This document shows, piece by piece, positions 3,225-35,620 of a stretch of DNA of 36,820 nt (position 1 is its first letter; each line of letters begins with the position of its first letter). The stretch lies in assembly GCA_009773315.1 (NCBI GenBank), contig WRPE01000032.1, positions 1-36,820 of the forward strand, read 5' to 3'. Origin of the DNA: Syntrophaceae bacterium. GTDB lineage: Bacteria > Desulfobacterota > Syntrophia > Syntrophales > Smithellaceae. The notes under the pieces are model-generated. The model made no database searches and was not told the origin of the DNA. It was given only the letters and a program-made list of their open reading frames with translations. The position numbers were made by a program, and so were the translations under genes.

Positions 3225-4546
3225 ACAGTCCTGCAATGATACGCCAAATATTAGATGAAGTAAAAATTTATATGGCTGGAAAGGCCTTCGATACGAACTG
3301 TCTTCCCCTCGATTGGAAGTTTGATCGGTTAAAAGATGTTGCCTTGGTCAACAGGACTTCGCTAACTGCAAACACTGACCCGGACTACGAATTTGATTAC
3401 CTAGAGATATCGAATGTTAATTACCATGGAATTATTGACCATCAGGCCATAGAGCATTTGCGATATGAAGATGCACCATCAAGGGCTCGCAGGCGCGTGG
3501 GCAAAAACAATACAGTAATCTCATCCGTTAGACCGAATCTTCAGGCCGTGGCGTTTTTGCCTGACGTTGGTCAGGATTTCGTGTGTTCTACAGGATTCAA
3601 TGTTGTACAAGCACGAGAGATAAAACACCATCCAAAGTTTGTGTATTACACGCTAATATCAGAATCAGCGCGACAATATTTTGAATCAATCGCAAAAGGA
3701 GTTGGCTATCCGGCAATAGATGAGAAGGATTTTAATTCATTGCCTTTACCGCTGCCACCACGTCCGGAACAAGAGCGGATTGCGGCTTTTCTGGACGCGA
3801 GCTGTGCAGCGATTGATGCGGCAGTTTCGGCCAAGCAGCGACAAATTGAAACCTTAGATTCTATTGTAGATGCAACACTCCACAAAGCTTTTGCAAATGC
3901 TGAATGGCCACAAGAGCGAATAAAAGACGTGACAATAAAGATAGGAAGTGGCGTAACGCCTGAAGGTGGTGCGGCGAATTATTTGAATGAAGGGATTCCT
4001 TTGCTGAGGAGCCAAAATATACATTTCGACGGTCTGCATTTAGATGATGTTGCGTTTATATCTGAAGAAACTCATGCTGAGATGTCAAACAGTCAAATCA
4101 AGCCACGCGATGTTTTGCTCAACATAACAGGTGCTTCAATTGGCCGATGTACCTATGTGCCGGAGAACTTTGGAGAGGGTAATGTTAACCAGCATGTCTG
4201 CATTATTCGGGGCAATCATCAAATTGATTATCGTTTCCTTTCGTCATTTCTTTCCTCACCAATTGGGCAAGGTCAAGTACTTTCTTCGTTCACGGGCGCA
4301 TCACGTCAGGGGCTCAGTCACATAGAGCTTGGTCTTATCAGTGTACCATTGCCATCCATCGACGTGCAACGAACCATTATTGCAGATTTAGAAAGAAGAA
4401 TGCTTCAACAAAAGCAAATACACGGAAATATAGAATCGCAAATTACTACCCTCACAACCTTCCGCAAATCCCTGATCTACGAATGCGTCACAGGTCAGCG
4501 ACGAATAATGGAATCTGATCTGAAGAAGGTAAAAGCCTATGGCTAG
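3221..4546 (+). CDS. hsdS: Type I restriction-modification specificity subunit HsdS
   Basis: DNA-recognition subunit. It has two target-recognition domains, each followed by a helical spacer: TRD1 about residues 25-185, with the conserved boundary PLPLPPRPEQERIAAFLD near 175-195; TRD2 about 225-390, ending in VPLPSIDVQRTIIADLE. The length of 441 aa fits a full two-domain HsdS with a bipartite target. The start overlaps the stop of the DUF1016 gene (ATGA) and the end overlaps the hsdR start by 8 bp. By eye the gene is richer in A and T than hsdM and hsdR, which agrees with the known exchange of hsdS alleles. The recognition sequence cannot be predicted. Confidence 0.93.
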   Translation: MNSPAMIRQILDEVKIYMAGKAFDTNCLPLDWKFDRLKDVALVNRTSLTANTDPDYEFDYLEISNVNYHGIIDHQAIEHLRYEDAPSRARRRVGKNNTVISSVRPNLQAVAFLPDVGQDFVCSTGFNVVQAREIKHHPKFVYYTLISESARQYFESIAKGVGYPAIDEKDFNSLPLPLPPRPEQERIAAFLDASCAAIDAAVSAKQRQIETLDSIVDATLHKAFANAEWPQERIKDVTIKIGSGVTPEGGAANYLNEGIPLLRSQNIHFDGLHLDDVAFISEETHAEMSNSQIKPRDVLLNITGASIGRCTYVPENFGEGNVNQHVCIIRGNHQIDYRFLSSFLSSPIGQGQVLSSFTGASRQGLSHIELGLISVPLPSIDVQRTIIADLERRMLQQKQIHGNIESQITTLTTFRKSLIYECVTGQRRIMESDLKKVKAYG

Positions 4547-8227: not shown

Positions 8228-8899
8228 ATGAAATATGATGAAGATAAAGTGGACGAATTAACCCTGGCGATTCTCTATCTTGTCTCCCACGGTCGGGAAG
8301 AAGGTTGCGGGGCAAGGGCATGGAAAGGTTTTGACTGGGACACATTAAACAGGCTCCACAACAAAGGATTGATATCGAATCCAATCGGGAAAACCAAGTC
8401 AGTCGGCATGACGGAAGAAGGTTTTCTCAAGTCCAAAGACCTTTTTGAAAAACATTTTGTCAATGATCAGCGGCGCGACAAATCACCCATAGAGCCTAAA
8501 ACCGCTTGTGCGAAGCAGGTGAAAACACGGCACAAACGCGAACGGGAACAACCCGACAGGGAAGACCGTATTCTGTACGAAATCGTTGTTGATGCATACA
8601 ACGATACCGAACGGGCCATGGGCTGGTACTACTACCTTAAGGATAAAATGCAAATGCCCTTTACAGCGCGATGCCGAATCAGCCATTCGATTTCTCCTCT
8701 GAAAACCGGTCAGGAGGTTCAAGTTATGGGCATGGCTAAAGAAAGTGAATGCATGTCCGAGGTTTTTGTTTTGGTGAAGTATGGCAAAACAACACTTGCC
8801 GTGCCTCTGGCGCAGATGGACTGCCTGTCTGAGCATGAAGAGACCATCGAAGCCGTTGCTGACTGGCATTACTGGGTTGCACGCGGCTATGAATACTGA
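8228..8899 (+). CDS. DUF6429 domain fused to a CcbP-type calcium-binding domain
   Basis: Two recognisable parts. Residues 1-78 (MKYDEDKVDELTLAILYL, then ARAWKGFDWDTLNRLHNKGL, LTEEG-like GMTEEGF) match the small winged-helix-like DUF6429 family. Residues about 115-223 match the CcbP family first described from Anabaena as a calcium-binding protein: EIVVDAYNDTERAMGWYYYL, PFTARC, SPLKTGQEVQVMGMA, and the ending ADWHYWVARGYEY. The linker at 78-112 is lysine/arginine-rich and probably disordered. A strong GAGGAG ribosome site lies 5-10 bp upstream of the ATG. The next gene follows after 38 bp with its own GGAGG site. It sits between the RM operon and an AbiE pair. The domain match is from memory of the families; the function of the fusion is unknown. 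Confidence 0.75.
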   Translation: MKYDEDKVDELTLAILYLVSHGREEGCGARAWKGFDWDTLNRLHNKGLISNPIGKTKSVGMTEEGFLKSKDLFEKHFVNDQRRDKSPIEPKTACAKQVKTRHKREREQPDREDRILYEIVVDAYNDTERAMGWYYYLKDKMQMPFTARCRISHSISPLKTGQEVQVMGMAKESECMSEVFVLVKYGKTTLAVPLAQMDCLSEHEETIEAVADWHYWVARGYEY

Positions 8900-8937: not shown

Positions 8938-9324
8938 ATGGATCTGTTTGAAAAATATCAAGATGTGCTTCAAAATATTGAATTTGCCATCGTCTCTATT
9001 TATCGGGAACATCTTGAAATGACGGACTATGCTGTGATGCGTTCGCTGGAGGCAATCATTAATCATTATAGCGCTGAAAAAACAGGAAAGACGCCACGGA
9101 ATTTTTCGCTCGATAAACCTGAAAAAGAGATTTTTCGGCAAGTTCAATCTGTTTGCGAATGGCGCATGGGACGGCCATCATCATTCGGGATGCCTGAAAA
9201 CAAACCCATATCCCTAGATGAAATCATTCAATGCCTGAAGCGGATTTTGAAATCCGTTGAGAAGTGGAATAAACATGAAGGCATACAAGGCTATTTGCGT
9301 TTTGTATCTCAATACGTCCGTTAG
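8938..9324 (+). CDS. Conserved hypothetical protein, 128 aa
   Basis: All-helical cytosolic protein without a signal peptide or membrane segment. The N-terminus (MDLFEKYQDVLQNIEFAIV) and the block VCEWRMGRPSSFG look conserved, but I cannot name the family with confidence. It has a good GGAGG ribosome site 9 bp before the ATG and lies 38 bp after the DUF6429-CcbP gene on the same strand, so the two are probably one transcript and may work together. The following 246 bases hold a weak hairpin (CTACC/GGTAG near 9361) and then the AbiE promoter. Confidence 0.7.
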   Translation: MDLFEKYQDVLQNIEFAIVSIYREHLEMTDYAVMRSLEAIINHYSAEKTGKTPRNFSLDKPEKEIFRQVQSVCEWRMGRPSSFGMPENKPISLDEIIQCLKRILKSVEKWNKHEGIQGYLRFVSQYVR

Positions 9325-9570: not shown

Positions 9571-10167
9571 ATGCTTAGTAAAAAAATAGCCAGATTGCAG
9601 GAATTAAGTCGGAAGCCCTATTTTACTCTTGGCGACGTGGCGCAGACTTTCAGCCTCCAGCCGGCCCCCGCCCGCGTATTATGCAGCCGTTATGTTCGGC
9701 AGGGTTTGCTGGTCAGATTTAAAAATAATATTTATACAACTGCCTGGAAATGGGAAAGTCTGACGCGCCAGGATCTTTTTAAAATCGCTAATGTGTTGCA
9801 GGTTCCTTCCTATATTTCTCTGATGACGGCCCTGGCGTATTATGATGTGACAACGCAGGCGCAGAACAATTATCAGGAAAGCGTCTGTCTGAAACGTTCG
9901 ATAGCCTACCATGTCCGGGAGGCTGTTTTCAGTTATGCCAAATTACAGAGCCGATACTATGGCGATTTCGTTAAAAAGGACGGCGTATTTATCGCTACCA
10001 AAGAAAAAGCGTTTCTGGACGCGGCCTATCTTTTCTCATTCGGCAAATATAAGTTTGACGTTGACTCACTAGACATGAAGAAACTGGAATTGAAAAAGAT
10101 AAAGAGTCTGTTGAAAGTTTATCCTGAAAAAACAAAAGAAACGGTGAAAAGACTATGCGGGATTTAA
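9571..10167 (+). CDS. AbiEi-like antitoxin / transcriptional regulator of a type IV toxin-antitoxin pair
   Basis: Antitoxin half of an AbiE-type system. The N-terminal winged-helix region (about 1-55: FTLGDVAQTFSLQPAPARVLCSRYVRQGLLVRFKNNIY, interrupted here only for length) is the usual AbiEi DNA-binding domain; the rest (about 60-198) is the antitoxin domain, with YISLMTALAYYDVT typical of the family. Length 198 aa is normal. The gene overlaps the toxin gene by 13 bp. In characterised AbiE systems AbiEi represses the operon and neutralises AbiEii without direct protein binding. Start chosen by an AAGGA ribosome site 9 bp upstream. Confidence 0.85.
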   Translation: MLSKKIARLQELSRKPYFTLGDVAQTFSLQPAPARVLCSRYVRQGLLVRFKNNIYTTAWKWESLTRQDLFKIANVLQVPSYISLMTALAYYDVTTQAQNNYQESVCLKRSIAYHVREAVFSYAKLQSRYYGDFVKKDGVFIATKEKAFLDAAYLFSFGKYKFDVDSLDMKKLELKKIKSLLKVYPEKTKETVKRLCGI

Positions 10168-11814: not shown

Positions 11815-12789
11815 GTGATTAAGTATCTGATCAAGAGGGTCCTCTTTATGATTCCGCTTCTGCTCGGCATCACCGTTATTTGTTTTTTTGTGATGCGCCT
11901 GGCGCCCGGATCGCCCACGGATTTGCAGACGCAGATGAATCCGAAAGCGTCGGCCGAGATGAAAGAGCGTCTGATGAGCCTGTATGAACTGGATAAGCCC
12001 ATCCATGTTCAATACTGGTCATGGCTGAAAAAGCTGGGGCGAGGTGACTTGGGAACTTCCTTTTCATCCGACCATCGGAAGGTGGCAGACAAGATTCTAG
12101 AGCGTCTGCCGATCACAGTTATTATCAATTTTCTGTCGCTGATCATTATTATCGCAGTGGCTGTGCCGATTGGCGTTTTATCGGCGGTTCATCAGGATTC
12201 GCTTTTTGATAAAGTGACCGCTGTGCTTGTGTTTATCGGTTTTGCTGTGCCGACGTTCTGGCTGGCGTTGCTCATGATGATTTTTTTCGGCATTCACCTG
12301 GGGTGGCTGCCGATTTCAGGATTGCGGTCCCTGAATTATGAATATCTCAGTGCCTGGGGGCAGTTGGCGGATCTGGTCAAGCATCTGATTCTGCCGGTCT
12401 TCATATCTGCTTTTGGAGGATTGGCCGGACTTTCCCGCTACATGCGGGCCAATATGCTGGAGGTTATCAGGCAGGATTACATTTTGACGGCGCGCGCCAA
12501 GGGGTTGAGCGAAAGACAGGTGATTTATAAACATGCCTTGCGCAATGCACTATTGCCGGCGATTACCATCCTGGGATTATCCATTCCCGGCCTGATCGGA
12601 GGCAGTGTCATCTTTGAAACTATTTTTGCGATTCCGGGCATGGGGCAGTTGTTTTACCTGTCGGTGATGGCTCGTGACTATCCGACGGTCATGGGGATAT
12701 TGCTGATTGGCGCGATTTTGACGTTGGTGGGGAATTTGATTGCCGATTTGTCGTATGCGCTGGCGGACCCGCGTATCCGCATTTCGTGA
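11815..12789 (+). CDS. Opp/Dpp-type ABC transporter permease (OppB/DppB-like)
   Basis: Inner-membrane permease of a peptide/nickel-type ABC importer. An N-terminal membrane helix (about 8-30, then RLAPGSPTD) is followed by a large extracytoplasmic loop and five further helices. The EAA loop that contacts the ATPase is present: [20 protein letters not shown] (about 223-242). Length 324 aa is typical for the B component. The start is GTG at 11815; an ATG two bases upstream is in another frame. The C-component permease follows after 12 bp, but no ATP-binding or solute-binding gene is in the neighbourhood, so the partners must be encoded elsewhere or the operon is split. Substrate unknown. Confidence 0.92.
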
Positions 12790-12801: not shown

Positions 12802-13629
12802 ATGGGTTTCTGGAAAATGTTTTATCAAAACAAACTGGCGCTGACCGGCTGTGGCATTGTAATTTTGCTGTTTGTCGTGTCGCTCCTGGCGCCCGTGCTT
12901 GCGCCTTACGATCCCGGCGCGATTGATCTGAAAAATGTCCTGGCGCCGCCGTCCGGTGAACACTGGTTTGGTACGGATCAGCTGGGGCGCGATGTTCTTT
13001 CCCGAATGATTTGGGGAGCGCGCATTTCGCTGAAGGTCGGTTTTGTCGCCACGGGTCTCGCAATTCTCATCGGGATGGTTCTGGGCGCCGTTGCCGGTTT
13101 CTACGGCGGTTGGATCGATGCGGTGATCATGCGATTTGTGGATGTCATGCTTTGTTTTCCCGCCTTTTTCCTGATCCTGGCGGTGATCGCCTTCCTGGAG
13201 CCTTCGATCTGGAATATTATGATTGTCATCGGGCTCACCGGCTGGATGGGGGTGACTCGTTTGGTGCGGGCGGATTTTGTCTCGCTTCGCGAGCGGGATT
13301 TTGTGCGGGCGGCCCGGGCCATAGGCGCAAATGATGCACGAATTATTTTTATGCACATTCTGCCCAACGCGCTGGCGTCCATTCTGGTGGCGGCTACCCT
13401 CGGTATTGCCGGCGCGATTCTGACGGAGTCGGCTCTGAGTTTTTTGGGAATCGGCGTGCAGCCGCCGACGCCCAGCTGGGGGAATATTCTGACGGCAGGC
13501 AAAGATAATATCGATATCGCCTGGTGGCTGTCGCTTTATCCGGGCCTGGCGATTCTGATCACGGTAGTCGGCTATAATTTATTGGGCGAAGGCATACGCG
13601 ACGCGTCCGATCCGCGCCTGAAAAGATAA
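12802..13629 (+). CDS. Opp/Dpp-type ABC transporter permease (OppC/DppC-like)
   Basis: Second permease of the importer. It has an N-terminal OppC_N helix (about 10-32), the conserved HWFGTDQLGRDVLSRMIWGAR segment (about 52-72), then five membrane helices. The EAA loop ARAIGANDARIIFMHILPNA is at about 169-188, and the ending GEGIRDASDPRLKR is the usual DppC C-terminus. 275 aa is full length. It follows OppB-like by 12 bp. No ATPase gene follows; after 171 bases a different unit begins, with a good ribosome site and a small gene. Confidence 0.92.
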   Translation: MGFWKMFYQNKLALTGCGIVILLFVVSLLAPVLAPYDPGAIDLKNVLAPPSGEHWFGTDQLGRDVLSRMIWGARISLKVGFVATGLAILIGMVLGAVAGFYGGWIDAVIMRFVDVMLCFPAFFLILAVIAFLEPSIWNIMIVIGLTGWMGVTRLVRADFVSLRERDFVRAARAIGANDARIIFMHILPNALASILVAATLGIAGAILTESALSFLGIGVQPPTPSWGNILTAGKDNIDIAWWLSLYPGLAILITVVGYNLLGEGIRDASDPRLKR

Positions 13630-15568: not shown

Positions 15569-16198
15569 ATGTATTCTGTTAAGGAAATATTTTATTCGGT
15601 ACAAGGGGAAGGCTATTACAGTGGCCGTCCGGCGGTTTTTTGTCGTTTTGCCGGATGTAACTTGTGGTCCGGTAAAGAAGAAGACCGAAAAGATGCGCTC
15701 TGCAAATTTTGCGATACGGATTTTGTCGGGACGGACGGCAACGATGGCGGATCATATAAGACCGCAAGCCTTTTGGTCCAAAAGATAGCTCAAAACTGGC
15801 CGCAATCAAACGGTCGCCGCTTTGTGGTTTGCACCGGCGGAGAACCCTTGCTGCAGATCAATGACGAGTTGATTGCCGCCCTGCATGAAGCAAATTTTGA
15901 AATAGCCGTGGAGACCAATGGTACACTTGCAGCGCCTGCGGGCATTGACTGGATTTGTGTCAGTCCCAAAGCCTCTGTGGCGTTGGCGCAGGTAAGCGGG
16001 CATGAGTTAAAGCTGGTCTATCCGCAGGATGGGGCCAATCCGGAACAATATCTAAAACTGAATTTCCGGCATTTTTTTCTGCAGCCCATGGACGGCGCTG
16101 GTCAGGAACAGGCCACAAGGCAGGCCTTGGAGTATGTTTTGGCGCATCCCGAGTGGCGAATCAGTGTGCAGTTGCATAAAATATTAGGTGTTCGATAA
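15569..16198 (+). CDS. queE: 7-carboxy-7-deazaguanine synthase QueE (radical SAM)
   Basis: Radical-SAM enzyme that converts 6-carboxytetrahydropterin to 7-carboxy-7-deazaguanine. The cluster motif is the QueE-type CX14CX2C: Cys30 (AGCNLWSG), Cys45 and Cys48 (CKFCDTDFVG). Further blocks are VQGEGYYSGRPAVFCRF at the N-terminus, CTGGEPLLQ (about 90-98), VETNGT and ICVSPKA. 209 aa is normal for this class. AAGGA lies 5-9 bp before the ATG. Followed 10 bp later by queD. Confidence 0.95.
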   Translation: MYSVKEIFYSVQGEGYYSGRPAVFCRFAGCNLWSGKEEDRKDALCKFCDTDFVGTDGNDGGSYKTASLLVQKIAQNWPQSNGRRFVVCTGGEPLLQINDELIAALHEANFEIAVETNGTLAAPAGIDWICVSPKASVALAQVSGHELKLVYPQDGANPEQYLKLNFRHFFLQPMDGAGQEQATRQALEYVLAHPEWRISVQLHKILGVR

Positions 16199-16208
16199 GG
16201 AATAAAAA

Positions 16209-16568
16209 ATGGAAATTTATAAAGTATTCAAATTTGACGCGGCGCATCATCTACCCTGTGTCCCTGTCGGCCACAAGTGCGCCAAGCTGCACGGCCATTC
16301 CTTCCGCGTTGAAATCCACATCCGGGGTAGCGCCGACCCCCGCACTGGCTGGGTGATGGATTTTGCCGACATCTCGGCCGCTTTTGAACCGGTCCTGGAT
16401 CAATTAGATCATAAAAATTTAAACAATATCGAAGGTCTGGAAAATCCCACTTCGGAAAATTTATGTCAGTGGATCTGGCGGCGTCTTCGACCCACACTTC
16501 CGCAATTGTATAAGATCATCGTTCAGGAAAGCCCGGAATCCGGCTGTATCTATGAAGGGGAAGATTAA
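16209..16568 (+). CDS. queD: 6-carboxy-5,6,7,8-tetrahydropterin synthase QueD
   Basis: Converts 7,8-dihydroneopterin triphosphate to 6-carboxytetrahydropterin, the first committed queuosine step. Zinc ligands come from FDAAHHL (His13/14) and KLHGHSF (His28, His30); Cys24 is the catalytic cysteine of VGHKCAKLHGH. WVMDFADI, LDHKNLN, NPTSENLC and QESPESGCIYEGED complete the family pattern. AAGGA precedes the ATG. The last 86 bp before the final codon are repeated exactly at 20781-20866, which marks this 3' end as an insertion site (described separately). The stop TAA is 27 bp before the TOTE gene, so the inserted gene may be read from the que transcript. Confidence 0.96.
   Translation: MEIYKVFKFDAAHHLPCVPVGHKCAKLHGHSFRVEIHIRGSADPRTGWVMDFADISAAFEPVLDQLDHKNLNNIEGLENPTSENLCQWIWRRLRPTLPQLYKIIVQESPESGCIYEGED
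16479..16564 (+). repeat. queD-end direct repeat, copy 1 (within queD)
   Basis: 86 bp, CGGCGTCTTC to GGGGAAGA, identical to 20781-20866. It covers the last 29 codons of queD except the final base of the GAT/GAA codon. In this copy the codon is GAT, then TAA, then TTGTATTAAC. Confidence 0.97.
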
Positions 16569-16595
16569 TTGTATTAACAACGGGAGCGGTGAATC

Positions 16596-19469
16596 GTGAC
16601 TTCCGACGCACTATTAGAAAAATATAACGCTTTAGTGGCCGAAAACGAAACTTTGAAAAAGGAAAATGAGCGGCTCAGAGCGAAATTGCGCGACATTCTT
16701 CCTTCGCCAAGCGATGATGTAATCTTCCCCGCCCCATCAAATGAGAGCATTCAACCATTGGTGTTGCTGTCCGAAATCCCTCCATCAGAAAAGATAAAGT
16801 TATTCATGACGCTTTTTAAAGGCAGAGATGATGTCTATGCCAAACGATGGGAAAACAAGAAAGGTGATACAGGATACTCACCCGCATGCCGTAATGAATG
16901 GAAATCAGGCGTCTGCCGAAAGCCGCAGATCAAATGTTCCGTCTGCGCTCACAGGACGTATGACGAATTGACGGAGCAGATTATCGAGGATCATCTGCGA
17001 GGGAAGGTCATTGTCGGCATATACCCTTTGTTCATGGATGAAACATGCCGTTTTCTGGCGATGGATTTTGACGACGAAGGCTGGCAAAGAGATATTACAA
17101 CGCTTCGCTCCGTTTGTTTGGCGTTCGATATATCCGTTGTTGTGGAGAGATCAAGATCAGGTAATGGCGCGCATGCCTGGTTTTTCTTTGAAACGCCGAT
17201 CCCTGCTGCATTGGCAAGAAAATTCGGTTCTGCATTAATTACTTGCTCCATGAGCAGGCATCATGAGCTATCCTTCAAATCCTACGATAGATTATTTCCA
17301 AACCAGGATACCATGCCTAAAGGTGGCTTCGGCAATTTAATCGCTCTGCCATTGCAGAAAAAGGCGCGTGAACTCGGCAACAGTGTTTTCATTGATGAAA
17401 ACTTCAATCCTTATGAAAATCAGTGGGAATTTTTATCCGCCATTCAAAAAATGTCTGAGGAAAGCGTTGCAATGCTTGCGGCGCACTTGAGCGGGCCGGA
17501 TGAGTTGGGCGCGTTGAAAAAAGATGATGAAAAAATAGAAAAGCCGTGGGAGCCAAAGCCCCGGATCGGTCTTGCCGCTCAGGATTTTCCAAAAGAAATG
17601 GTGTTAGTCCGGGCCAACATGATTTTTATTCCCAAAGCCAGTATTTCACAAAAAGGCTTAAACGCAATGCAACGGCTGGCTGCGTTTAAAAATCCTGATT
17701 TCTATAAAGCTCAGGCCATGCGCCTGTCGACCTACAACAAGCCGAGAATTATTTCATGTTGTGATGAGACACCCGACTATCTTTGTCTGCCTAGAGGATG
17801 CGAAGGGGACATCATAGCGCTTTGTGCTGATGCGGGCATCACACCTGCCTGGTTGGATAAGAAACAAAAAGGAAAAAGCATTCAAGTGGATTTTACTGGT
17901 GTGCTCAGGGACGAGCAGTGTCAGGCCATTGATGAATTGTTAAAACATGAAAACGGTGTTCTTTCGGCAACCACGGCTTTCGGCAAGACAGTGATTGCTG
18001 CAAAACTGATTGCCGAGCACAAGGTCAATACGTTGATTCTTGTCCATAGACAGCAGCTTCTTACCCAATGGACGGACAGGCTTACGGAGTTCTTGAAAAT
18101 CGACGAAGTCCTGCCCGCTATGGAAAAGAAGCGCGGACGCCAAAAAAAGAAAAATGTGATCGGATTGATTGGCGCCGGGAAGAAGAGTCCCGGCGGGATT
18201 GTGGATATTGCGATCATGCAATCTTTAAGCAGCGGTGGCGACGTTAAAGAGCTTGTGAAAGATTACGGCATGGTGATTGTCGATGAATGCCATCATGTCT
18301 CGGCGTTCAGTTTTGAACAGATCCTCAAGACCGTTACGGCAAAGTATGTCTATGGTTTGACGGCCACGGCGGCAAGGCAGGACGGTCATCATCCGATCAT
18401 CTTCATGCACTGCGGCCCCATCCGGTATCGCGTGGACGCAAAACAACAGGCACGCTTGCGGCCTTTTGAGCATTACATTATTCCAAGATTCACAAATTTC
18501 CGATTGTCATTTGAGATGGACGAGAAAGATTATTCCATTCAGGAACTTTATTCCGAAATTGTGTCAAACGACTGGCGAAACAGGCTAATCACCGATGACG
18601 TCATTAGGAGTTATTCCGAAAGCAGAAACTGTCTTGTCCTGACTGAAAGAACCGCGCATGTCGATGTGTTGGCAAAGATGCTGCAAGGAAGTATTCCGGA
18701 TGTTATTTCGCTGACCGGGCGCGCAAGCGCGAAAGAAAAGAGGGAAGCCTTCATCCGGATCAATGAAACACCTGCCGGGCAGCCATTGACGTTGTTGGCA
18801 ACGGGTAAATATGTCGGTGAAGGTTTTGATGAACCAAGGCTCGATACGCTTTTTCTGGCGATACCAATATCCTGGAAGGGAACCGTTCAGCAGTATGCAG
18901 GACGCCTGCACCGTCTCTTTGTCGGCAAGGAAAATGTCCAAATTTATGACTACGTGGACAGCCAAGTCAGGGTTTTTTCGAAGATGTATAATAAGAGATT
19001 GGCTGGTTATGCGTCACTGGGTTACAAGGTCCGGGCGGAGGGCCTGGCCGAAAATTCCATGGACATTATTTTTGACCATCAAAATTTCCAACCTGTTTAC
19101 GAGAATGACTTGGCAGTTGCACGAAAAGAAATTGTGATTGTCAGTCCTTTTGCCACAAAAAGACGAATTCAGCAGGCATCGCCGTTGATTGCCGCCGCTT
19201 TGCAAAAGCAGATCAAAGTCGTCATTATGACGCGGCCTGTTACGGACTATAAAGACGACAAGGCTCTGCGGGGGATTTTTACAGAGTTGGAATCCATGGG
19301 GCTGCAAATTATTTTCAAATCCAACATCCATCAAAAATTCGCGATCATCGACCGAAGTATTGTCTGGTACGGCAGCATCAATCTGCTGGGTTATGGTCGG
19401 TCGGAAGAAACCATGATGCGCTTGGAAAGCGCCAACATAGCCCGTGAATTACTAAAGAGCCTTGAATAA
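16596..19469 (+). CDS. TOTE-type primase - SF2 helicase - PLD nuclease fusion protein
   Basis: A 957-aa three-domain protein. Residues 4-32 form a short coiled coil. Residues about 65-290 are an archaeo-eukaryotic primase domain of the TOTE conflict-system type: zinc-like Cys98, Cys107, Cys114, Cys117; catalytic DFDDE with Asp157 and Asp159; SGNGAHAW with His193; YDRLFPNQD and GGFGNLIALPLQ. Residues about 435-800 are an SF2 helicase: Walker A ATTAFGKT (458-465), DECHH (563-567), YGLTATAARQDG, and a second RecA domain with GEGFDEPRLD and QYAGRLHR. The C-terminus has a phospholipase-D nuclease signature: His912-x-Lys914, Asp919, GSIN (926-929). The GTG start has a GGGAG site 10 bp upstream. All catalytic residues are present. 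The family is proposed to act in biological conflict; action against phage here is inferred. It lies between two copies of the queD end. Confidence 0.88.
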   Translation: MTSDALLEKYNALVAENETLKKENERLRAKLRDILPSPSDDVIFPAPSNESIQPLVLLSEIPPSEKIKLFMTLFKGRDDVYAKRWENKKGDTGYSPACRNEWKSGVCRKPQIKCSVCAHRTYDELTEQIIEDHLRGKVIVGIYPLFMDETCRFLAMDFDDEGWQRDITTLRSVCLAFDISVVVERSRSGNGAHAWFFFETPIPAALARKFGSALITCSMSRHHELSFKSYDRLFPNQDTMPKGGFGNLIALPLQKKARELGNSVFIDENFNPYENQWEFLSAIQKMSEESVAMLAAHLSGPDELGALKKDDEKIEKPWEPKPRIGLAAQDFPKEMVLVRANMIFIPKASISQKGLNAMQRLAAFKNPDFYKAQAMRLSTYNKPRIISCCDETPDYLCLPRGCEGDIIALCADAGITPAWLDKKQKGKSIQVDFTGVLRDEQCQAIDELLKHENGVLSATTAFGKTVIAAKLIAEHKVNTLILVHRQQLLTQWTDRLTEFLKIDEVLPAMEKKRGRQKKKNVIGLIGAGKKSPGGIVDIAIMQSLSSGGDVKELVKDYGMVIVDECHHVSAFSFEQILKTVTAKYVYGLTATAARQDGHHPIIFMHCGPIRYRVDAKQQARLRPFEHYIIPRFTNFRLSFEMDEKDYSIQELYSEIVSNDWRNRLITDDVIRSYSESRNCLVLTERTAHVDVLAKMLQGSIPDVISLTGRASAKEKREAFIRINETPAGQPLTLLATGKYVGEGFDEPRLDTLFLAIPISWKGTVQQYAGRLHRLFVGKENVQIYDYVDSQVRVFSKMYNKRLAGYASLGYKVRAEGLAENSMDIIFDHQNFQPVYENDLAVARKEIVIVSPFATKRRIQQASPLIAAALQKQIKVVIMTRPVTDYKDDKALRGIFTELESMGLQIIFKSNIHQKFAIIDRSIVWYGSINLLGYGRSEETMMRLESANIARELLKSLE

Positions 19470-19532
19470 AATAGATATAACATCATTTTCAATCAGATAA
19501 GAGAAGTGGTCGAATATCGTACGGTATTATCT

Positions 19533-19564
19533 GCTATTTTGACTTATATATAATGCAAAATAGC
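19533..19564. promoter_or_regulatory. Inverted repeat upstream of hipB, candidate operator
   Basis: GCTATTTTG (19533-19541) and CAAAATAGC (19556-19564) form a perfect 9-bp inverted repeat 14 bp apart, next to the -35 box. A further GCTATTT lies at 19603-19609, just inside the gene. This is the usual layout for an autoregulating Xre/HipB repressor; binding is inferred. Confidence 0.5.
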
Positions 19565-19565
19565 G

Positions 19566-19594
19566 TTGACAATCAGTAATGTATTACATATAAT
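19566..19594 (+). promoter_or_regulatory. Consensus sigma-70 promoter of hipB
   Basis: TTGACA (19566-19571), 17-bp spacer, TATAAT (19589-19594): both boxes perfect. The expected transcription start, about 7 bp after the -10, falls on the hipB ATG at 19601, and no Shine-Dalgarno is present, so the message may be leaderless. Confidence 0.8.
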
Positions 19595-19600
19595 GCAATC

Positions 19601-19846
19601 ATGCTATTTAATATTGGACAACAAATTCGGCAGACTCGAAAGAAACGTAAGATTTCTCAGGCGGAATTGGCGAAAGCCCTGGGAATGAGCCGGACAACCA
19701 TCGGGCAGATCGAAAATGGCACCGTGCAGGAAATCGGTGTACGCAAGCTGATTCGCATTCTTGAATTTCTGGGGTTGGAACTGCGAGTGCGATCGGCAGG
19801 TCAACCGCCAACCCTGGAAGAACTTCGTGAAGAGGAGGAACGCTGA
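19601..19846 (+). CDS. HipB-like Xre-family antitoxin
   Basis: 81-aa helix-turn-helix protein. The Xre fold covers residues 5-60 (GQQIRQTRKKRKISQAEL, then GMSRTTIGQIENG as the recognition region), followed by a charged tail ending LREEEER. Position directly before a HipA-like kinase identifies it as the antitoxin and operon repressor. A perfect consensus promoter ends 6 bp before its ATG and inverted repeats overlap the promoter. Its stop TGA overlaps an ATG (TGATG), but that frame closes after 22 codons; the kinase frame is the same frame as hipB itself, past the stop. Confidence 0.85.
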   Translation: MLFNIGQQIRQTRKKRKISQAELAKALGMSRTTIGQIENGTVQEIGVRKLIRILEFLGLELRVRSAGQPPTLEELREEEER

Positions 19847-19936
19847 TGGTGGGAGTGTCTTCGTGTAACTGGTGGCAATCAGGTAGGGCGAAATCGGTTT
19901 GCGCTTCCCGGTGATCCATCGCCTCATATTTCCGAA

Positions 19937-20815
19937 ATGCCGGAATCTCTGGATGAACTGCTTGTCTATTCCGATACCAAAGAACTGTTTCATGAACTGG
20001 TGGCAAAATATGCGCTTAGCTCCGGAATATCAGGGGTTCAGCCCAAGGTACTGCTGGATGCTTCCGAGCGCGGCACTTTGACGCAAGCGAGCTACATTGT
20101 AAAGTCGTGGGGTTCGGATTACCCGTGTCTGGCCGCCAATGAGTATTTCTGCATGACAGCGGCCAAGCGCGCCGGACTTTCCGTACCGGAATTTTTTCTT
20201 TCCCACAATGGCGGTCTTTTAATTATGCGGCGATTTGACATAACGGCGGAAGGCGCGGCGATCGGCTTTGAGGATATGTGCAGTCTTCAGGCATTGGGAA
20301 CAGCAAAAAAATATGCCGGCAGTTATGAACGTGTCGCCAAAAGCATCAGTGATTTTGTTTCCGGAAATCGTCTGATGGAAGCCCGCCAACAGTTCTTTTC
20401 GGCGCTGGTGTTGTCGGTCATGCTGCGAAACGGTGATGCGCATCTGAAAAACTTCGGTGTTCTGTATGACTTACCGGGACATGCCGTCCGAATGGCCCCC
20501 GTGTATGATCTGGTGACCACGACGGCCTACATCGCCAAAGATGTTCCGGCGCTGACCCTGGCCGGGACAAAGAAGTGGTGGCCGAAAAAAACGCTGGAGC
20601 GTTTTGCCGTGGCCCATCTTTCTTTACCGATGCCGGTGGTTTCAGCCACTTTCAACCGGATGGCCGAAGCGGTCACGGAAACACGGGCGTTAATCCCCGC
20701 CTATATGGCCGACCACCCGGGATTCAAAGATATCGGCCAGCGTTTGATAGCTTCTTGGGATCAAGGCGTGAAGGGGCTGACGGCGTCTTCGACCCACACT
20801 TCCGCAATTGTATAA
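19937..20815 (+). CDS. HipA-like Ser/Thr kinase toxin lacking the N-terminal subdomain (HipT-like)
   Basis: HipA-family kinase (known members phosphorylate aminoacyl-tRNA synthetases and arrest growth). Present: gly-rich loop GISGVQPK (about 32-39), lysine strand YIVKSWG, MRRFD, catalytic loop NGDAHLKNFGV and metal-binding APVYDLVTT. The HipA_N subdomain (about 100 residues) is missing. Family-like sequence (LRVTGGNQVGRNRFALPGD) continues in frame upstream to about 19859, back to the hipB stop, with no start codon; the first ATG is at 19937 and has no ribosome site. The final dozen residues (after KGLT) are read from the repeated queD end in another frame. It may be a decayed HipA, or a HipBST-type HipT that has lost HipS. 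Kinase residues are intact. Confidence 0.75.
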   Translation: MPESLDELLVYSDTKELFHELVAKYALSSGISGVQPKVLLDASERGTLTQASYIVKSWGSDYPCLAANEYFCMTAAKRAGLSVPEFFLSHNGGLLIMRRFDITAEGAAIGFEDMCSLQALGTAKKYAGSYERVAKSISDFVSGNRLMEARQQFFSALVLSVMLRNGDAHLKNFGVLYDLPGHAVRMAPVYDLVTTTAYIAKDVPALTLAGTKKWWPKKTLERFAVAHLSLPMPVVSATFNRMAEAVTETRALIPAYMADHPGFKDIGQRLIASWDQGVKGLTASSTHTSAIV

Positions 20816-20866
20816 GATCATCGTTCAGGAAAGCCCGGAATCCGGCTGTATCTATGAAGGGGAAGA
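20781..20866 (+). repeat. queD-end direct repeat, copy 2
   Basis: Exact 86-bp copy of 16479-16564, offset 4302 bp. It keeps the queD frame and stop (final residues EGEE) but has no start, and it overlaps the hipA-like 3' end in a different frame. It continues into AATAAAGAGTAA and a T-run, ending at about 20895, a stretch shared with copy 3 and absent from copy 1. Confidence 0.97.
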
Positions 20867-20920
20867 ATAAAGAGTAATTTTTTTATTTAAAATCAAGCCG
20901 AATGAATTTAGGCTACCTAG

Positions 20921-21607
20921 CTTCTCATCCTGGAAGAACGAAAACGCGCCAAAGCCTTTGTGGAGATCAACACGCCGATCATCAAGGCCTGGTGTTCGGA
21001 CATGGCGTTCCTCAGTATTTCCGAGGCAATGCAATGCTACGGAGGCTACGGATTTTCCGAAGATTATCCCATCGCGCAGCAGCTTCGGGACAGCCGGATC
21101 TACCCCATCTGGGAAGGAACCAACTATATCCAATCTCTGGACCTCATCGGCCACAAATGGATGATGGCCGGAGGTCAGGTGTTTGCTTTGTGATTTGCGG
21201 AACTGGAAAAATTTGTTGCCGACAACAAAGATCATAAAATTCTCAGCGCGCAAATCGCTCTTCTGGCGGAAGGTTTGAATCAGTATAAGGAAATTCAGAC
21301 TACAATGGCCGGATACCTGGGACAGGGTAAGTTCAGCATGATCGGTTTCTTTGCCACTCGAATCCTCAATGCCATAGGCCATATATACGGCGCCAAGCTT
21401 CTGCTTGAGTATGCCATAATTGCCCAGAAGAAAATCGACGAGCTGGGCAAAGAACATTTCGAATACCCGTACTATGCCGGTAAAGTGGCTTCGGCGAAAT
21501 TCTTCGCCCACAACCTTCTTCCCATAGTTGGAAATATCTTGCGGATCATCAAGGAAGGTTATAATTCCGTTATGGAAATTCCCGAGGCATCCTTCCTGTT
21601 AGAATAG
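20921..21607 (+). pseudogene. Acyl-CoA dehydrogenase remnant, 5'-truncated with internal stop
   Basis: Only the C-terminal part of an acyl-CoA dehydrogenase remains. The frame begins after a stop at 20918 with LLILEERKRAKAFVEI and lacks the N-terminal and FAD-binding middle domains. Conserved blocks are AMQCYGGYGFSEDYPIAQQ and IWEGTNYIQSLDL, matching CYGGYG and YEGTNAIQ of the intact gene at 24986. An in-frame TGA at 21191-21193 interrupts it where homologues usually carry tryptophan (TGG to TGA), after GGQVFAL; the frame then continues FAELEKFVADNKD to LLE and a stop at 21605-21607. A strong terminator follows. The 5' break lies just after repeat copy 2. Confidence 0.85.
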
Positions 21608-21619
21608 AACATTTTACTT

Positions 21620-21660
21620 CAGGGCGGGAGCAAACAAACTCCCGCCCTGATTCTTTTCTG
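21620..21660 (+). terminator. Rho-independent terminator after the acyl-CoA dehydrogenase remnant
   Basis: Perfect 11-bp stem CAGGGCGGGAG / CTCCCGCCCTG (21620-21630, 21639-21649), 8-base loop, then ATTCTTTTCT. It ends the + strand unit and separates it from the convergent lipase gene. Confidence 0.88.
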
Positions 21661-21697
21661 AGAAATACAACTGGAACAAAAATATTGGATAGACAAG

Positions 21698-22165
21698 CTA
21701 ATTGATCGCGCCGTTTTTTTTCAACAGTACTGCAATAGCCTCTGCAAGGCGGCTGTATCCTGCAGCGTTGGGATGGATATAATCCGATTTAAGTGAACCA
21801 TCGGCCAGTACCAGGGACAATGTATTTTCTTCCAGAGGAATAGTCAGCTCTTTGGCGATGTCTAAATAAAAAGACGCGGGTGAAACAAATATCCCCGGAG
21901 AAGGCACCGCAATTATAACAACGGCTACGCCTTTTTGCACTCCGGCATTAATAATCCGTCTCCCGATTAATTTCTCCAAAACCGCGGGATAACTCTCCTG
22001 CGGATTGGCGCCGGTGCCGAAAGTAATACTGTCGCCGAAAGCCACAACGACGGCATCAGCGGCAAGCCTTGGTAACTTGTCTGGAGACGAACAGGCGGCA
22101 AAGCCGAATAAAAGCAGAACTGCCGCCAGCAGAAACCTGAATACATTATTTTTTTTAGAATTCAT
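21698..22165 (-). CDS. SGNH/GDSL-type lipoprotein hydrolase with internal deletion
   Basis: 155-aa lipoprotein-like SGNH hydrolase related to arylesterase TesA/TAP. The N-terminus is a lipoprotein signal (FLLAAVLLLFGFAACSS, Cys about 25). Block I AFGDSITFGTG (serine near 45) and block V SDYIHPNAAGY (Asp/His near 129-133) are present. The middle is missing: after RRIINAGV the sequence jumps directly to QKGVAVVIIAVPSPGIF. In full-length relatives about 50 residues lie here, including block II glycine and block III GGND asparagine (oxyanion hole). The join is in frame. The protein is likely inactive or strongly altered. It lies 14 bp after the DUF2784 gene on the minus strand. Confidence 0.8.
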   Translation of the reverse strand: MNSKKNNVFRFLLAAVLLLFGFAACSSPDKLPRLAADAVVVAFGDSITFGTGANPQESYPAVLEKLIGRRIINAGVQKGVAVVIIAVPSPGIFVSPASFYLDIAKELTIPLEENTLSLVLADGSLKSDYIHPNAAGYSRLAEAIAVLLKKNGAIN

Positions 22166-22179
22166 ACCATGCCCTCCTG

Positions 22180-22560
22180 CTACCTGTGAATATCCTTCGG
22201 CAATGCACGTTGTTTTCTAATAATAATAGCGTAGATGACTAAGTTTATAGCGATGACCAGCCCGCCAAGGATAAATTGCGTAGATGCTGTGATGTTTGCA
22301 GGGTAGATTACCGGAATCAGGTATTGCTCAATGAAGCCTCCGCTGTATGAACTGCTGCCGGAAAGGCGGCGCAGATGATTTTCCAGCGGCGTCAGCGGAC
22401 AAATCCAGCCGGTCATCTCTACAACTACTCCCCAAACCACAGCCGGAATATGCACCCAGGCCAGACGTGGCCAACGCACGACAAGTAACCCTCCCGCAAC
22501 AACAAAAGCAATAAATAGAAGATGCGCCAAAATGATCGCGCCAGCTAGTATCGCATACAT
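22180..22560 (-). CDS. DUF2784-family membrane protein
   Basis: 126-aa integral membrane protein with about four helices: 1-25 (MYAILAGAIILAHLLFIAFV), 40-55 (WVHIPAVVWGVVVEM), and a C-terminal helix (LGGLVIAINLVIYAIII). The motif TGWICPLTPLENHLRRLSG followed by GFIEQYLIPVIYP is characteristic of DUF2784. The start at 22560 is chosen over an upstream in-frame ATG because AGAGGGGAG lies just before it. Function unknown. The downstream lipase gene is probably in the same transcript. Confidence 0.85.
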   Translation of the reverse strand: MYAILAGAIILAHLLFIAFVVAGGLLVVRWPRLAWVHIPAVVWGVVVEMTGWICPLTPLENHLRRLSGSSSYSGGFIEQYLIPVIYPANITASTQFILGGLVIAINLVIYAIIIRKQRALPKDIHR

Positions 22561-22740
22561 ACTCCCCTCTGATGTATATATGTTTTTTATGGATTCGTAA
22601 ATAATGTACTGAAAATATTTTTTTATTTCAATTAGAAATATTGACACACCATGATAATATAAACATTGACTCGGCAATAAATCTTTTTATATTCTAGCTC
22701 TGAGATAAACTGTTATTATAGAACAAACGGGGGGCAACCA

Positions 22741-23490
22741 ATGAATCTTGTCGAGCTTGCCGATGAAACAATAAATACTTTTGGCGAATATCCCTTTTTA
22801 ATATTCGATGACAAAATCTTTACCAACAAACAAATCATCTAGGACGCTACAAAGCTAGCTTGCAGCCTGATGAAGCTGGGCGTAAAAAAACCGATAATGT
22901 GGTTGTGATGCTTCCCAACTGCCCGGAGGTCATTATCAGCTATCAGGGAATTCTTCGCTGTAGCGGCGTTATCGTACCACTCATTCCGCTTATGGCGCAA
23001 AAGGAATTAACCCACATTCTGGACAACTGTGAAGCAGCGGCCACGATCACCATCAGCGATATTTTCCTAAAAAATGAATCCGTGCGGCTGCCGGACAAAA
23101 CCCTGAAAAACATTATCCTGCTTGATGATGCCGCACCGCAAGGGACCACTTCTTTTTCTCAACTGATTAATAACCAGCCTGATAAAACCTCGCTGCCAAC
23201 TATCGGAGAGGAAGATTATACACGGCAGGGACAACTTCAACACCCAAAGGGGTGATGTTAACGCATAAGAACCTTTACTCCTGTGCTGATAATTCGTTCC
23301 GCGCTCACGATACGCAGTCTTCTGATATCACGCTGGGTGCCCTGCCTCTTTCACATTCTTTCGGCCTTACTTCCATGAATAAAGCCTGCAAGTATGGCAA
23401 TCTTCATGTCCTGATGCGCAAATTCCAGGTTGAAGAGGCTTTTCAGCTGATCGAAAAATACAAAGTAACCGATTTCCCGGGAGCACCGGC
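22741..23490 (+). pseudogene. Acyl-CoA ligase (AMP-dependent) remnant, frameshifted and 3'-truncated
   Basis: Remains of an ANL-superfamily acyl-CoA synthetase. The frame opens at 22741 (MNLVELADETINTFGEYP), meets TAG at about 22840, shifts near the A-run at about 22885 into VVVMLPNCPEVIISYQGILR, and shifts again near 23220. After correction the P-loop-like signature reads TAGTTSTPKGVMLTHKNL, then LPLSHSFGLT and VTDFPGAPAL. Homology ends at about 23490, with roughly the last half to two thirds of the gene missing; a short unrelated tail continues into repeat copy 3. At least one nonsense and two frameshift lesions mean it is not functional. Confidence 0.85.
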
Positions 23491-23537
23491 TCTATCTATC
23501 AAGGGAAGAATAAAGAGTAATTTTTTATTTAAAATCA
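23486..23537 (+). repeat. queD-end repeat, copy 3 (partial, diverged)
   Basis: About 52 bp similar to 20842-20895 with two substitutions and two single-base indels; the core GGGAAGAATAAAGAGTAA plus the T-run and ATTTAAAATCA are shared. It begins where homology to the acyl-CoA ligase ends, so it marks the right junction of the 20.9-23.5 kb segment. Confidence 0.75.
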
Positions 23538-23698: not shown

Positions 23699-24949
23699 AT
23701 GAAGCATTTAAAAAGATTCATTTTATGGTCAACCATCAGTATTCTTTTTTTCTGGACATCTCTCGGCGTTGCGGGCGAAATAATTATCGGCTACTCGGGG
23801 CCGATCAGCGGCTTCGCCGCTGAATATGGTCAGGATATTTTCAACGGCATTGATATGGCTGTCAAAGAAATCAATGAAGAGGGCGGCATTACGGTTGCCG
23901 GAAAAAAATATACCTTTAAATTGGAAAAACTTGATGATCGCGCCGATCCCACTCAGGCAACCAACAATGCGCGACGCTTCCAGGCGGCAGGCGCCATCGC
24001 TGTCTTTAACGGTGTGTTCACCACCACCGTCCCTATAATGAAGATCAACGAAGAAAAGGGTAAAGAGTTTCTCATGATGGCGTATACCAGCACGCCGAAA
24101 GTTGAGGCACTGGGCAACAAACTGACCATCATATCCACGCCGACCTTCAGTGTTTATGTGGAAGTATTTACCGACTGGGCGCTGAAAAAAGGCTGGAAGA
24201 CCTGCGCCATGGTGGTAACGTTTGGCGGTTACGGCGACGAGTGGAGTCAGGCGTTCCGGGAATCCTGGGAAAAGAAGGGTGGCGTCATCACCATGTCCAA
24301 ACCAGCCAATTATTACATGGAAACAGACTTTTCCGCACCATTGACTGCTGCGATTGCGACCAAGCCTGATTGCATGCTGATTGGCGGCCCATCGGCCACA
24401 ACCGCTCTGGTGATCGAACAGGCGCGTCAGATGGGGTTCAAAGGCGGCTTCATTATGATCGATCAGGCCAAACAGGACATTATTGCCAAACTCCTGGGCA
24501 GCACGAAAATCATGGGCGACCTGATCGGTACGGGTGGTGTTTTGAGTCTTCCTGCTTCGCCTTACGCTGAGCGTCCGTTTGATTCGCGATATACAAAAGC
24601 CTATAAAAGAATGACCACTTGGGAATGCGTTCTCAATTACACGGCCGTGCATTCGCTGGCCCGAGCCATCACAGCGGCGGGCACGGCAACCGACGCCTAT
24701 AAGATCCGCGCGGCTTTTCCTAAAGCTTATCCCATGCTGGCTGACAAATTTCCGTCGGAGTTTATGGGCATTACAGCCGGAGGACGTGTCAAAATTTACG
24801 GTACGGTTCAGACGATTACCAAAGGCGTGTCCGATCCGTCATTCCTCAGTTGCTGGTGGCCGAAAAGCCAGGCAGAATTTGACGTGATCCTGAAAATGTC
24901 CAAAGTCAATGAAAAGGTCAATAAAATCTTAGTACCCGTCCCGTATTAA
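23699..24949 (+). CDS. Branched-chain amino acid-type ABC transporter substrate-binding protein
   Basis: Periplasmic binding protein of the LivJ/LivK (Peripla_BP_6) family, 416 aa. The N-terminus is a Sec signal peptide (residues 1-25, ending SLGVAG), then IIIGYSGPISGFAAEYGQD and INEEGGITVAGKKY, the typical first lobe. AVFNGVFTTTVPIMKINEEKG and the hinge regions fit the family. A GAGGAGG ribosome site precedes the ATG. No Liv permease or ATPase gene is adjacent. It lies 36 bp upstream of an acyl-CoA dehydrogenase gene, so the ligand may be an aromatic or fatty acid-type compound; this is inference from context. Confidence 0.9.
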   Translation: MKHLKRFILWSTISILFFWTSLGVAGEIIIGYSGPISGFAAEYGQDIFNGIDMAVKEINEEGGITVAGKKYTFKLEKLDDRADPTQATNNARRFQAAGAIAVFNGVFTTTVPIMKINEEKGKEFLMMAYTSTPKVEALGNKLTIISTPTFSVYVEVFTDWALKKGWKTCAMVVTFGGYGDEWSQAFRESWEKKGGVITMSKPANYYMETDFSAPLTAAIATKPDCMLIGGPSATTALVIEQARQMGFKGGFIMIDQAKQDIIAKLLGSTKIMGDLIGTGGVLSLPASPYAERPFDSRYTKAYKRMTTWECVLNYTAVHSLARAITAAGTATDAYKIRAAFPKAYPMLADKFPSEFMGITAGGRVKIYGTVQTITKGVSDPSFLSCWWPKSQAEFDVILKMSKVNEKVNKILVPVPY

Positions 24950-30488: not shown

Positions 30489-30544
30489 AAAAAAGAACCT
30501 TCTTTCGTACGATATATAATGAACATGATCATACCCATGTACTA

Positions 30545-30700
30545 GCAAGGAGTCTGCCAATAGCCGAAGGAGAATCAGAAGATTTAATTAATTCATTAAT
30601 AACGGAGTGTTAGATGAAAAGGAGAGAGCAGCAGCCTGATTTGGAGTGATTCGTTTGGCCTCAGTATTTGGTGGAGCCTCAATATTTTGAGGGATATTTT
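30545..30700. repeat. Dispersed intergenic repeat, copy A
   Basis: About 155 bp related to 33877-34031 (copy B) and in its second half to 35520-35620 (copy C). The first 29 bases, GCAAGGAGTCTGCC to GAAGGAGA, are identical to copy B; the second part shares TTTGGCCTCA and CCTCAATATT. It overlaps the last 37 codons of the penicillin-binding protein gene on the other strand. Confidence 0.8.
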
Positions 30701-33843: not shown

Positions 33844-33876
33844 GATAAACCTCCTGTTGAATACACAAATGTGATT

Positions 33877-34031
33877 GCAAGGAGTCTGCCAATAGCCGAA
33901 GGAGAGCGAGAAGATTGGATTAATGATTTAATAACGGGTTGTTAGCTTGGCAGGTCAGAACAGCCTCAAAAGCATGAGATGATTCATTTGGCCTCAATAT
34001 GCGGTGGAACCTCAGCATATTGAGGGATACT
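33877..34031. repeat. Dispersed intergenic repeat, copy B
   Basis: Second copy of the repeat, lying in the 371-base gap between the 66-aa membrane protein and the first metallo-beta-lactamase-fold gene. Identical to copy A over the first 29 bases and similar after that; contains CCTCA - GCATAT - TGAGG as a small hairpin. The rest of the gap (34032-34214) shows no gene; the ribosome site of the next gene is at its end. Confidence 0.8.
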
Positions 34032-34214
34032 TTGCGGGGAGGTGAACAGATAAACAGGCAATAAATTTAATTTATGGAATGCTATTCCACTTTCTGCGGG
34101 CCAAATGTGCATTGATCGCCTGTGTAAGCGCCTCATAGATCTTATCTTGACACACCAATGCCATCTCGATATGGTTTATCGCGCCTAAAGTGAGACTTCA
34201 ATAAAGGGAGCGCT

Positions 34215-35476: not shown

Positions 35477-35520
35477 AATCAGCCACACCTGTTGGCGGCG
35501 AGCTCGCGAGGTGGCTGATT
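35477..35520. terminator. Hairpin between the two convergent hydrolase genes
   Basis: Perfect 10-bp stem AATCAGCCAC / GTGGCTGATT (35477-35486, 35511-35520) with the palindrome GCGAGCTCGC in the loop. It begins 38 bp after hydrolase 1; on the minus strand it is followed by TTTTGG. A plausible shared terminator for the convergent genes. Confidence 0.5.
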
Positions 35521-35620
35521 AACGTGATGTTTGATGAAGAGAAAAGAACAGCAGCAAAACATGAAATAATTCGCTTGGCCTCAATATTCAGCAGAACCTC
35601 AATATGTTTAGGGATTTTTT
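35520..35620. repeat. Dispersed intergenic repeat, copy C (partial)
   Basis: Matches only the second half of copies A and B (from TGATG through TTGGCCTCAATATT and CCTCAATATG). It lies in the 313-base gap between the convergent hydrolases 1 and 2; the rest of that gap holds the hairpin above and no gene. Confidence 0.7.

Follow-up and report, generated by a model that had tools for sequence, protein, structure and literature searches.

How did DNA come to be lodged behind queD in this genome, where the 3′ end of the gene occurs three times on one contig? The locus lies in a stretch of 36,820 nucleotides, here called the window, on contig C78 of a draft genome of 86 contigs (G000:C78; G000 is the source genome). 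Its features are the following, in coordinates of the window.

16209..16568, + strand: queD, 6-carboxytetrahydropterin synthase, 119 aa, the intact target gene (PTPS 5.8e-39; NCBIfam QueD 108.1 bits, cut-off 89.25)
16479..16564, + strand: repeat copy 1 (c1), queD 3′ end; the letters behind it (TTAATTG...) differ from those of the empty sites
16596..19469, + strand: TOTE conflict protein, 957 aa (AEP-TOTE 2.8e-104, ResIII 9.3e-23, PLDc_2 9.2e-10)
19601..19846, + strand: hipB-like antitoxin, HTH (HTH_3 5.2e-16)
19937..20815, + strand: hipA-like toxin, N-terminally truncated remnant (HipA_C 1.2e-46; 398-aa homologue in the relative G004)
20781..20866, + strand: repeat copy 2 (c2), exact 86 bp, then native queD flank
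20867..20895, + strand: native downstream flank of queD, the same as at the empty sites
20930..21607, + strand: outer layer, acyl-CoA dehydrogenase 3′ fragment, a pseudogene with its 5′ part missing and an in-frame stop between two domain pieces
21698..22165, − strand: outer layer, GDSL/SGNH hydrolase, partial domain match
22180..22677, − strand: outer layer, DUF2784 protein (PF10861 1.2e-38, domain match nearly full-length)
22742..23490, + strand: outer layer, broken AMP-binding (acyl-CoA ligase) gene in two frames, left edge by eye
23486..23537, + strand: repeat copy 3 (c3), diverged displaced end and right border, running on into the native flank common to the relative G007

Alignment of 16475-16568 with 20777-20870 gave 98% identity over 94 nt, with mismatches at 16478 and 16565. 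The remainder contains the exact 86-bp run (16479-16564 and 20781-20866) reported in the first-pass annotation, a match that is impossible by chance. Dispersed repeats were rejected as the source of the copies: a 161-bp query around the queD end had just two strong matches in the source genome at E ≤ 0.001, c1 and c2, copy 3 being too short and too diverged to show in this search. The third, partial copy was nevertheless recovered as first described, aligning with 20842-20895 over 54 columns at 92.6% identity, and copies 2 and 3 are followed by a common flank (AATAAAGAGTAA, T-run, ATTTAAAATCA) that is absent behind copy 1. By eye, copy 3 has no sharp left border, as the fused broken AMP-binding gene has similar letters. 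No tRNA genes were found in the window.

The inner layer, an islet of 4216 bp by its coordinates, is dominated by the TOTE gene. Its product has an AEP primase, a helicase and a C-terminal PLD-like domain and is a clear member of the TOTE conflict system family (Pfam AEP-TOTE, PF22548; 348.2 bits compared with a gathering score of 27). It contains HxKx4D, AFGKT and DECH, which we take to be the motifs expected of such a protein. The hipA frame lacks the N-terminal part present in HipA of G004 and ends inside copy 2. Pfam analysis, applied to the main ORFs of the inner layer, displayed no conjugative transfer genes. In the outer layer, the acyl-CoA dehydrogenase fragment matches a copy elsewhere in the source genome (C42) at 82%. 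The right part of the window harbors three further, diverged direct repeats (30537-30700, 33869-34033 and 35520-35620; 74-78%).

Related genomes were searched for the same site. Among 40 genomes including the source, queD was matched in 21, and 20 queD loci were fetched. Two relatives, G007 and G015, have an empty site, in which the queD end (...GAAGAATAA) continues directly into AGAGTAAT7ATTTAAAATCATAAACATTGAAG (AATAAAGAGTAAT7... with the preceding letters), the DNA behind copy 3 in the window. Such a passage from queD into the DNA behind copy 3 had been predicted from the window, and the insertion proposed with it, at the 3′ end and with queD kept whole at the left and displaced ends at the right, is supported. 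All empty sites in this analysis are at queD. A livK-like substrate-binding gene right of copy 3 (23699-24949) is present at that position in G007 and absent there in G004 and G015.

Other relatives carry filled sites. G004 has the same TOTE gene (97%) and a left junction identical to that of the source genome (GAAGATTAATTGTATTAACAACGGGAG); its second queD end, 101 bp long and 91% alike, is followed by the native flank, and the outer layer is absent. The module accompanying the TOTE gene differs between genomes. It is HipBA in the source genome; in G004 an antitoxin/ParE-like pair that is absent in the window (ParE match just under the cut-off) is located between TOTE and hipB; in G012 an AAA_14/DUF4143 gene follows queD and precedes a TOTE gene (88% alike) running off the contig. 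Moreover, G004 retains a remnant of a second TOTE 3′ end (77-85 bp) between hipA and the repeat, 20-30 bp short of the latter. The expectation that the queD end of relatives would hold other cargo was borne out by G006, where a 194-bp queD repeat encloses FecR/LysM and CHASE2 kinase genes.

The perfect inner repeat had been taken to mean a recent insertion and the diverged outer one an older event. Neither part of this dating is supported. What is apparently a single insertion has copies 100% alike in the source genome and 91% alike in G004, so repeat identity is no clock and dating insertions by it calls for caution; gene conversion in the source genome would account for the perfect repeat. 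Since G004 shares the inner islet and is free of the outer block, the greater age of the outer layer is unsupported. This layer was seen as a block in the source genome only; in 39 relatives, with at most 7 candidates scored per genome, just pieces of it were seen, and it was rejected as a known unit. The outer layer may be younger than the inner islet; alternatively, G004 may have lost it through a recombination event joining copies 2 and 3.

Divergence at fourfold sites was compared between genes of the site. Between the source genome and G004, the two parts of the TOTE gene differ at 3/147 and 15/229 sites (18/376 together) and hipB plus hipA at 37/160 (Fisher 2e-9 compared with TOTE); therefore, the toxin module has a history different from that of TOTE. 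The queE gene of the source genome is 96.5% identical to that of G007, which has the empty site, and 94.3% to that of G004. In the comparison with G012, fewer of the fourfold sites differ in TOTE (30/128) than in queE and queD together (41/101; p 0.006). To judge from the sequences, these figures suggest exchange at the queD site; they give no date.

We propose that the inner layer is probably a non-autonomous, CIME-like islet free of recombinase genes, which entered queD at its 3′ end by recombination and brought a queD end of its own. A crossover between this end and the resident one would leave queD whole with the islet's tail behind it (c1), while the resident end and the native flank attached to it would come to lie beyond the islet (c2, c3). 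As cargo, the islet has the TOTE primase-helicase-PLD gene and exchangeable modules of the toxin-antitoxin type. The recombinase may be supplied in trans, host homologous recombination being the closest alternative. The inner layer appears to work like a cis-mobilizable islet with a putative mover. The account is concrete and testable and offers a route by which TOTE genes, and toxin-antitoxin pairs on their own, might travel although no mover is seen. The cargo of G006 and that of a further relative, G080 (see below), is not conflict-type and speaks against it, as do the many TOTE loci free of such repeats and the restriction of empty sites to queD.

Comparable structures were found at the 3′ end of mnmG. 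This gene, assigned by GIDA, was matched in 46 of 50 family genomes, and 17 loci (16 and L102) were inspected. Four of them contain displaced mnmG ends, with inserts ranging from 0.8 to 5 kb: G054 has a Phd/ParE-like pair and a broken TOTE gene, G056 a Phd/ParE pair alone, apparently whole, in 0.8 kb, G058 4 kb of DNA including an HTH gene, and G080 DUF898 and M48 peptidase genes in 2.4 kb. A 34-bp mnmG match in G077 was not confirmed as a displaced end on inspection. The queD and mnmG 3′ ends are candidate reusable docking sites in this bacterial family. Side by side, the mnmG loci (L217-L246) display last codons and downstream DNA that differ in nearly every genome behind a conserved stretch. 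In G056, G075, G020, G074 and G069, and less clearly in G061, G065 and G008, a GC*/GR* tail is followed by AAAACG-type DNA, which looks like a dispersed repeat.

The surroundings of TOTE genes were surveyed more widely. The 80 best-matching of 578 relatives, joined by additional loci from the order, gave 84 loci at which 1 kb or more of upstream DNA was available. A direct repeat linking the upstream DNA to the first 400 bp behind TOTE was present at 16 of the 84 loci compared with 26/510 later windows (Fisher 5e-5) and with inverted repeats at 5/84 in the same window (Fisher 0.009), the 400-bp window having been picked after a first repeat scan had been seen; 68 loci had no repeat in it. This first scan yielded 51 repeat pairs, many of them dispersed repeats, of which 37 bracketed TOTE (21.5 expected by random placement). 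Set aside from the 16 were L138 and L164 (dispersed repeats), L104 (a copy at the contig edge) and L171 (27 bp inside a gene). The 12 that remain are L089, L102, L106, L119, L125, L131, L150, L169, L185, L188, L194 and L196 (Fisher 0.0035 against the undropped later windows). Palindromic repeats (L094) and helicase paralogy (L097) were not counted as brackets. About 12 of the 84 loci appear to share one anatomy, in which the end of a gene or tRNA is followed by an accessory module and the TOTE gene, and a displaced copy of the end closes the block. Similarly constructed blocks, inside which no mover gene was seen, occur in some relatives and in some distant bacteria.

The bracketing ends, recognised at six of these 12 loci and at two others, are of several kinds. 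ARAGORN identified a tRNA-Asn end around the TOTE islet of L089, a tRNA-Lys end around TOTE and an AbiEi gene in L100, and a tRNA-Leu end in L333, where the module is a DUF4062 gene and TOTE is of a short form; in L102 the end belongs to mnmG. Exceptions to the 3′-end rule are L196 (yyaL-type 5′ end) and L106 (interior of an AbiEii gene). In L196, three yyaL-type (Thioredox_DsbH) 5′ ends surround a truncated TOTE gene (6321-6513, 9757-9878 and 12477-12669). By eye, the end is tmRNA-type in L150 and tRNA-type in L119. ARAGORN found no RNA gene at either, Rfam found nothing in L119, and sub-threshold tmRNA pieces in L150 (0.0021 and 0.023) do not lie at copy 1. An array of related repeats around the L150 TOTE gene (3952-3987, 8289-8385, 13266-13361 and 16197-16292) perhaps represents a row of successive islets at a tmRNA end. 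The module that separates TOTE from the left repeat is AAA_14 plus DUF4143 in L131, L150, L185 and L188, Fic plus DUF4172 in L089, RhuM-Fic in L125, HTH plus a DUF6036 nucleotidyltransferase in L169 and SLFN AlbA_2 in L194.

Eleven islets, picked cases including that of G004 and leaving out L196, L106, L100, L155, L108, L333 and the window, measure 4184-5211 bp, and in 10 of them a gap of 2-343 bp separates the end of the TOTE gene from the repeat on the right. Terminal inverted repeats were absent between their two 250-bp ends, and a transposon of that type was rejected. Follow-up TOTE loci had a repeat in 0/4 full-length and 1/11 short forms, the latter being L333 (14 of 15 without one in that window), after five further full-length loci had been dropped as duplicates of the 80-locus set. 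A second copy of the tRNA end was found in L089 and L100 among 11 tRNA-bearing TOTE loci, L118 having a 20-bp match at the contig edge; L122, L151, L182, L193, L177, L109, L188 and L189 gave none that was convincing. A search of 14 relatives for the empty site of L089 revealed no tRNA in the loci around the right-hand flank. As a background control, 20 stretches, each 20 kb long, were taken from two genomes of the family. Six of them contained a total of 15 direct-repeat pairs 40 bp or more in length; a tRNA-Thr end accounts for one pair, and others look dispersed or intragenic. In the stretch with the tRNA-Thr end (L286, from G065), a 63-bp copy of the tRNA-Thr 3′ end (5213-5295) is displaced 3.8 kb downstream (9008-9070).

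Host homologous recombination is a possible, though not a probable, explanation of these structures. Flanking repeats would free a circle with one gene end, which would re-enter the same gene elsewhere by a single crossover of the Campbell type, and 3′ ends would be seen since only such insertions keep the gene alive. The four mnmG islets have left repeat boundaries at about −113, −95, −73 and −59 from the stop, which is not expected of a single site-specific core and favours homology. Repeat lengths at queD and mnmG vary likewise (49-194 bp), the contigs are free of recombinase genes, and a foreign tail at c1 with a resident one at c2 would fit equally. In contrast, the repeats at tRNA ends (17, 24 and 47 bp) are short for RecA and resemble ordinary integrase sites, thereby favouring site-specific recombination. 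Furthermore, host recombination leaves the islet's first gain of a gene end unexplained.

A bolder reading makes the TOTE gene and one exchangeable module a minimal integrase-free mobile unit, which the primase-helicase-PLD protein would copy or nick and which would re-enter gene ends. We consider it rather unlikely; if true, host gene ends would serve as landing homology for an integrase-free element.

Nobusato in 2000 and Furuta in 2010 reportedly described restriction-modification genes inserted with long target duplication. A duplication of this kind, in which the target's own end is doubled, is an unlikely origin of the queD repeats. At queD, the letters of the copy 1 tail are foreign, and the native stop and flank are kept at copies 2 and 3. 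The queD tails of G006 differ between copies (RGDD* and QGEL*). In G054, the closest mnmG tails by score are those of G022/G007 for c1 (MEMTSR*) and those of G070/G078 for c2, at 27 and 26 at best on about 70 letters. A foreign c1 tail and a resident c2 tail fit a crossover between an element-borne and a resident gene end better than plain target duplication. An unusual KKRE stretch common to c1 and c2 of G056 points the other way, as target duplication would give, and in neither L196 nor L106 is the repeat a 3′ end. Conflict or toxin-antitoxin genes that lie between long direct repeats with no mover also agree with the pattern of restriction-modification insertion in passages of PMC1643837 and PMC3154945. 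The queD islet resembles what these passages describe in its conflict genes, long direct repeats and invisible mover; it differs in a left end that looks element-borne, and among the ends recognised here gene 3′ ends and tRNA genes predominate.

An autonomous tyrosine or serine integrase island was rejected, as no integrase gene is present in the element. The absence of an integrase between the copies, already observed in the first pass, extends to the contig: none of the eight PF00589 matches of the source genome is located on it, and the genome is without a PF00239 match. Nine islet-bearing genomes together have 80 PF00589 and 3 PF00239 matches, with none on the nine islet-type contigs, some of them short drafts (G000:C78, G004:C55, G006:C30, G012:C158, G054:C51, G056:C54, G058:C17, G080:C70 and G066:C26). 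The islet could also be the decayed remnant of a larger island that lost its integrase, which we regard as quite unlikely. Signs of decay are the truncated hipA in the window, the TOTE remnant in G004, the broken TOTE gene in G054 and a C-terminal piece of a tyrosine recombinase (sub-threshold, 3.2e-05) adjoining the L095 islet at a contig edge. However, the 11 chosen islets are near-equal in size and gene order, and the G056 insert retains an apparently whole toxin-antitoxin pair. An assembly artefact or a duplication without insertion is hardly credible: the genomes are drafts and misassembly had been considered a serious alternative, but for the inner layer it is very unlikely on the sequences compared, because the separately assembled G004 shares the left junction and has a repeat of its own, of 101 bp, and the sites of G007 and G015 are empty.

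For the islet that we favour, the closest known kind is the CIME, as defined in PMC5704250, combined with tandem accretion at a gene end as in the ssrA islands of Dehalococcoides (PMC3146451). Passages of these two papers report 15 units without integration genes between repeats. The inner islet likewise has direct repeats of the target gene end, an intact target and no integration genes inside, and displaced 3′ ends are a further likeness to the systems in these passages. In contrast to them, protein genes (queD and mnmG) are among the targets, the contigs revealed no partner with an integrase, and where TOTE is the cargo, a single gene and a small module make up the 4-5 kb. The open-licence literature searched contained no tie between TOTE and repeat-bounded islets.

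Possible vehicles were sought among phages and plasmids. A phage vehicle was rejected, as 0 of 1706 phage records with a match cover 80% of TOTE. Plasmid records with a TOTE match number 290, of which 48 cover at least 80%. In 20 plasmid records among the matches listed, the alignment ends at about residue 823, without the C-terminal part. Both the phylum sample (L324-L334) and the plasmids include a shorter form of TOTE, whose match stops at about residue 812-825 and which therefore lacks the PLD part.
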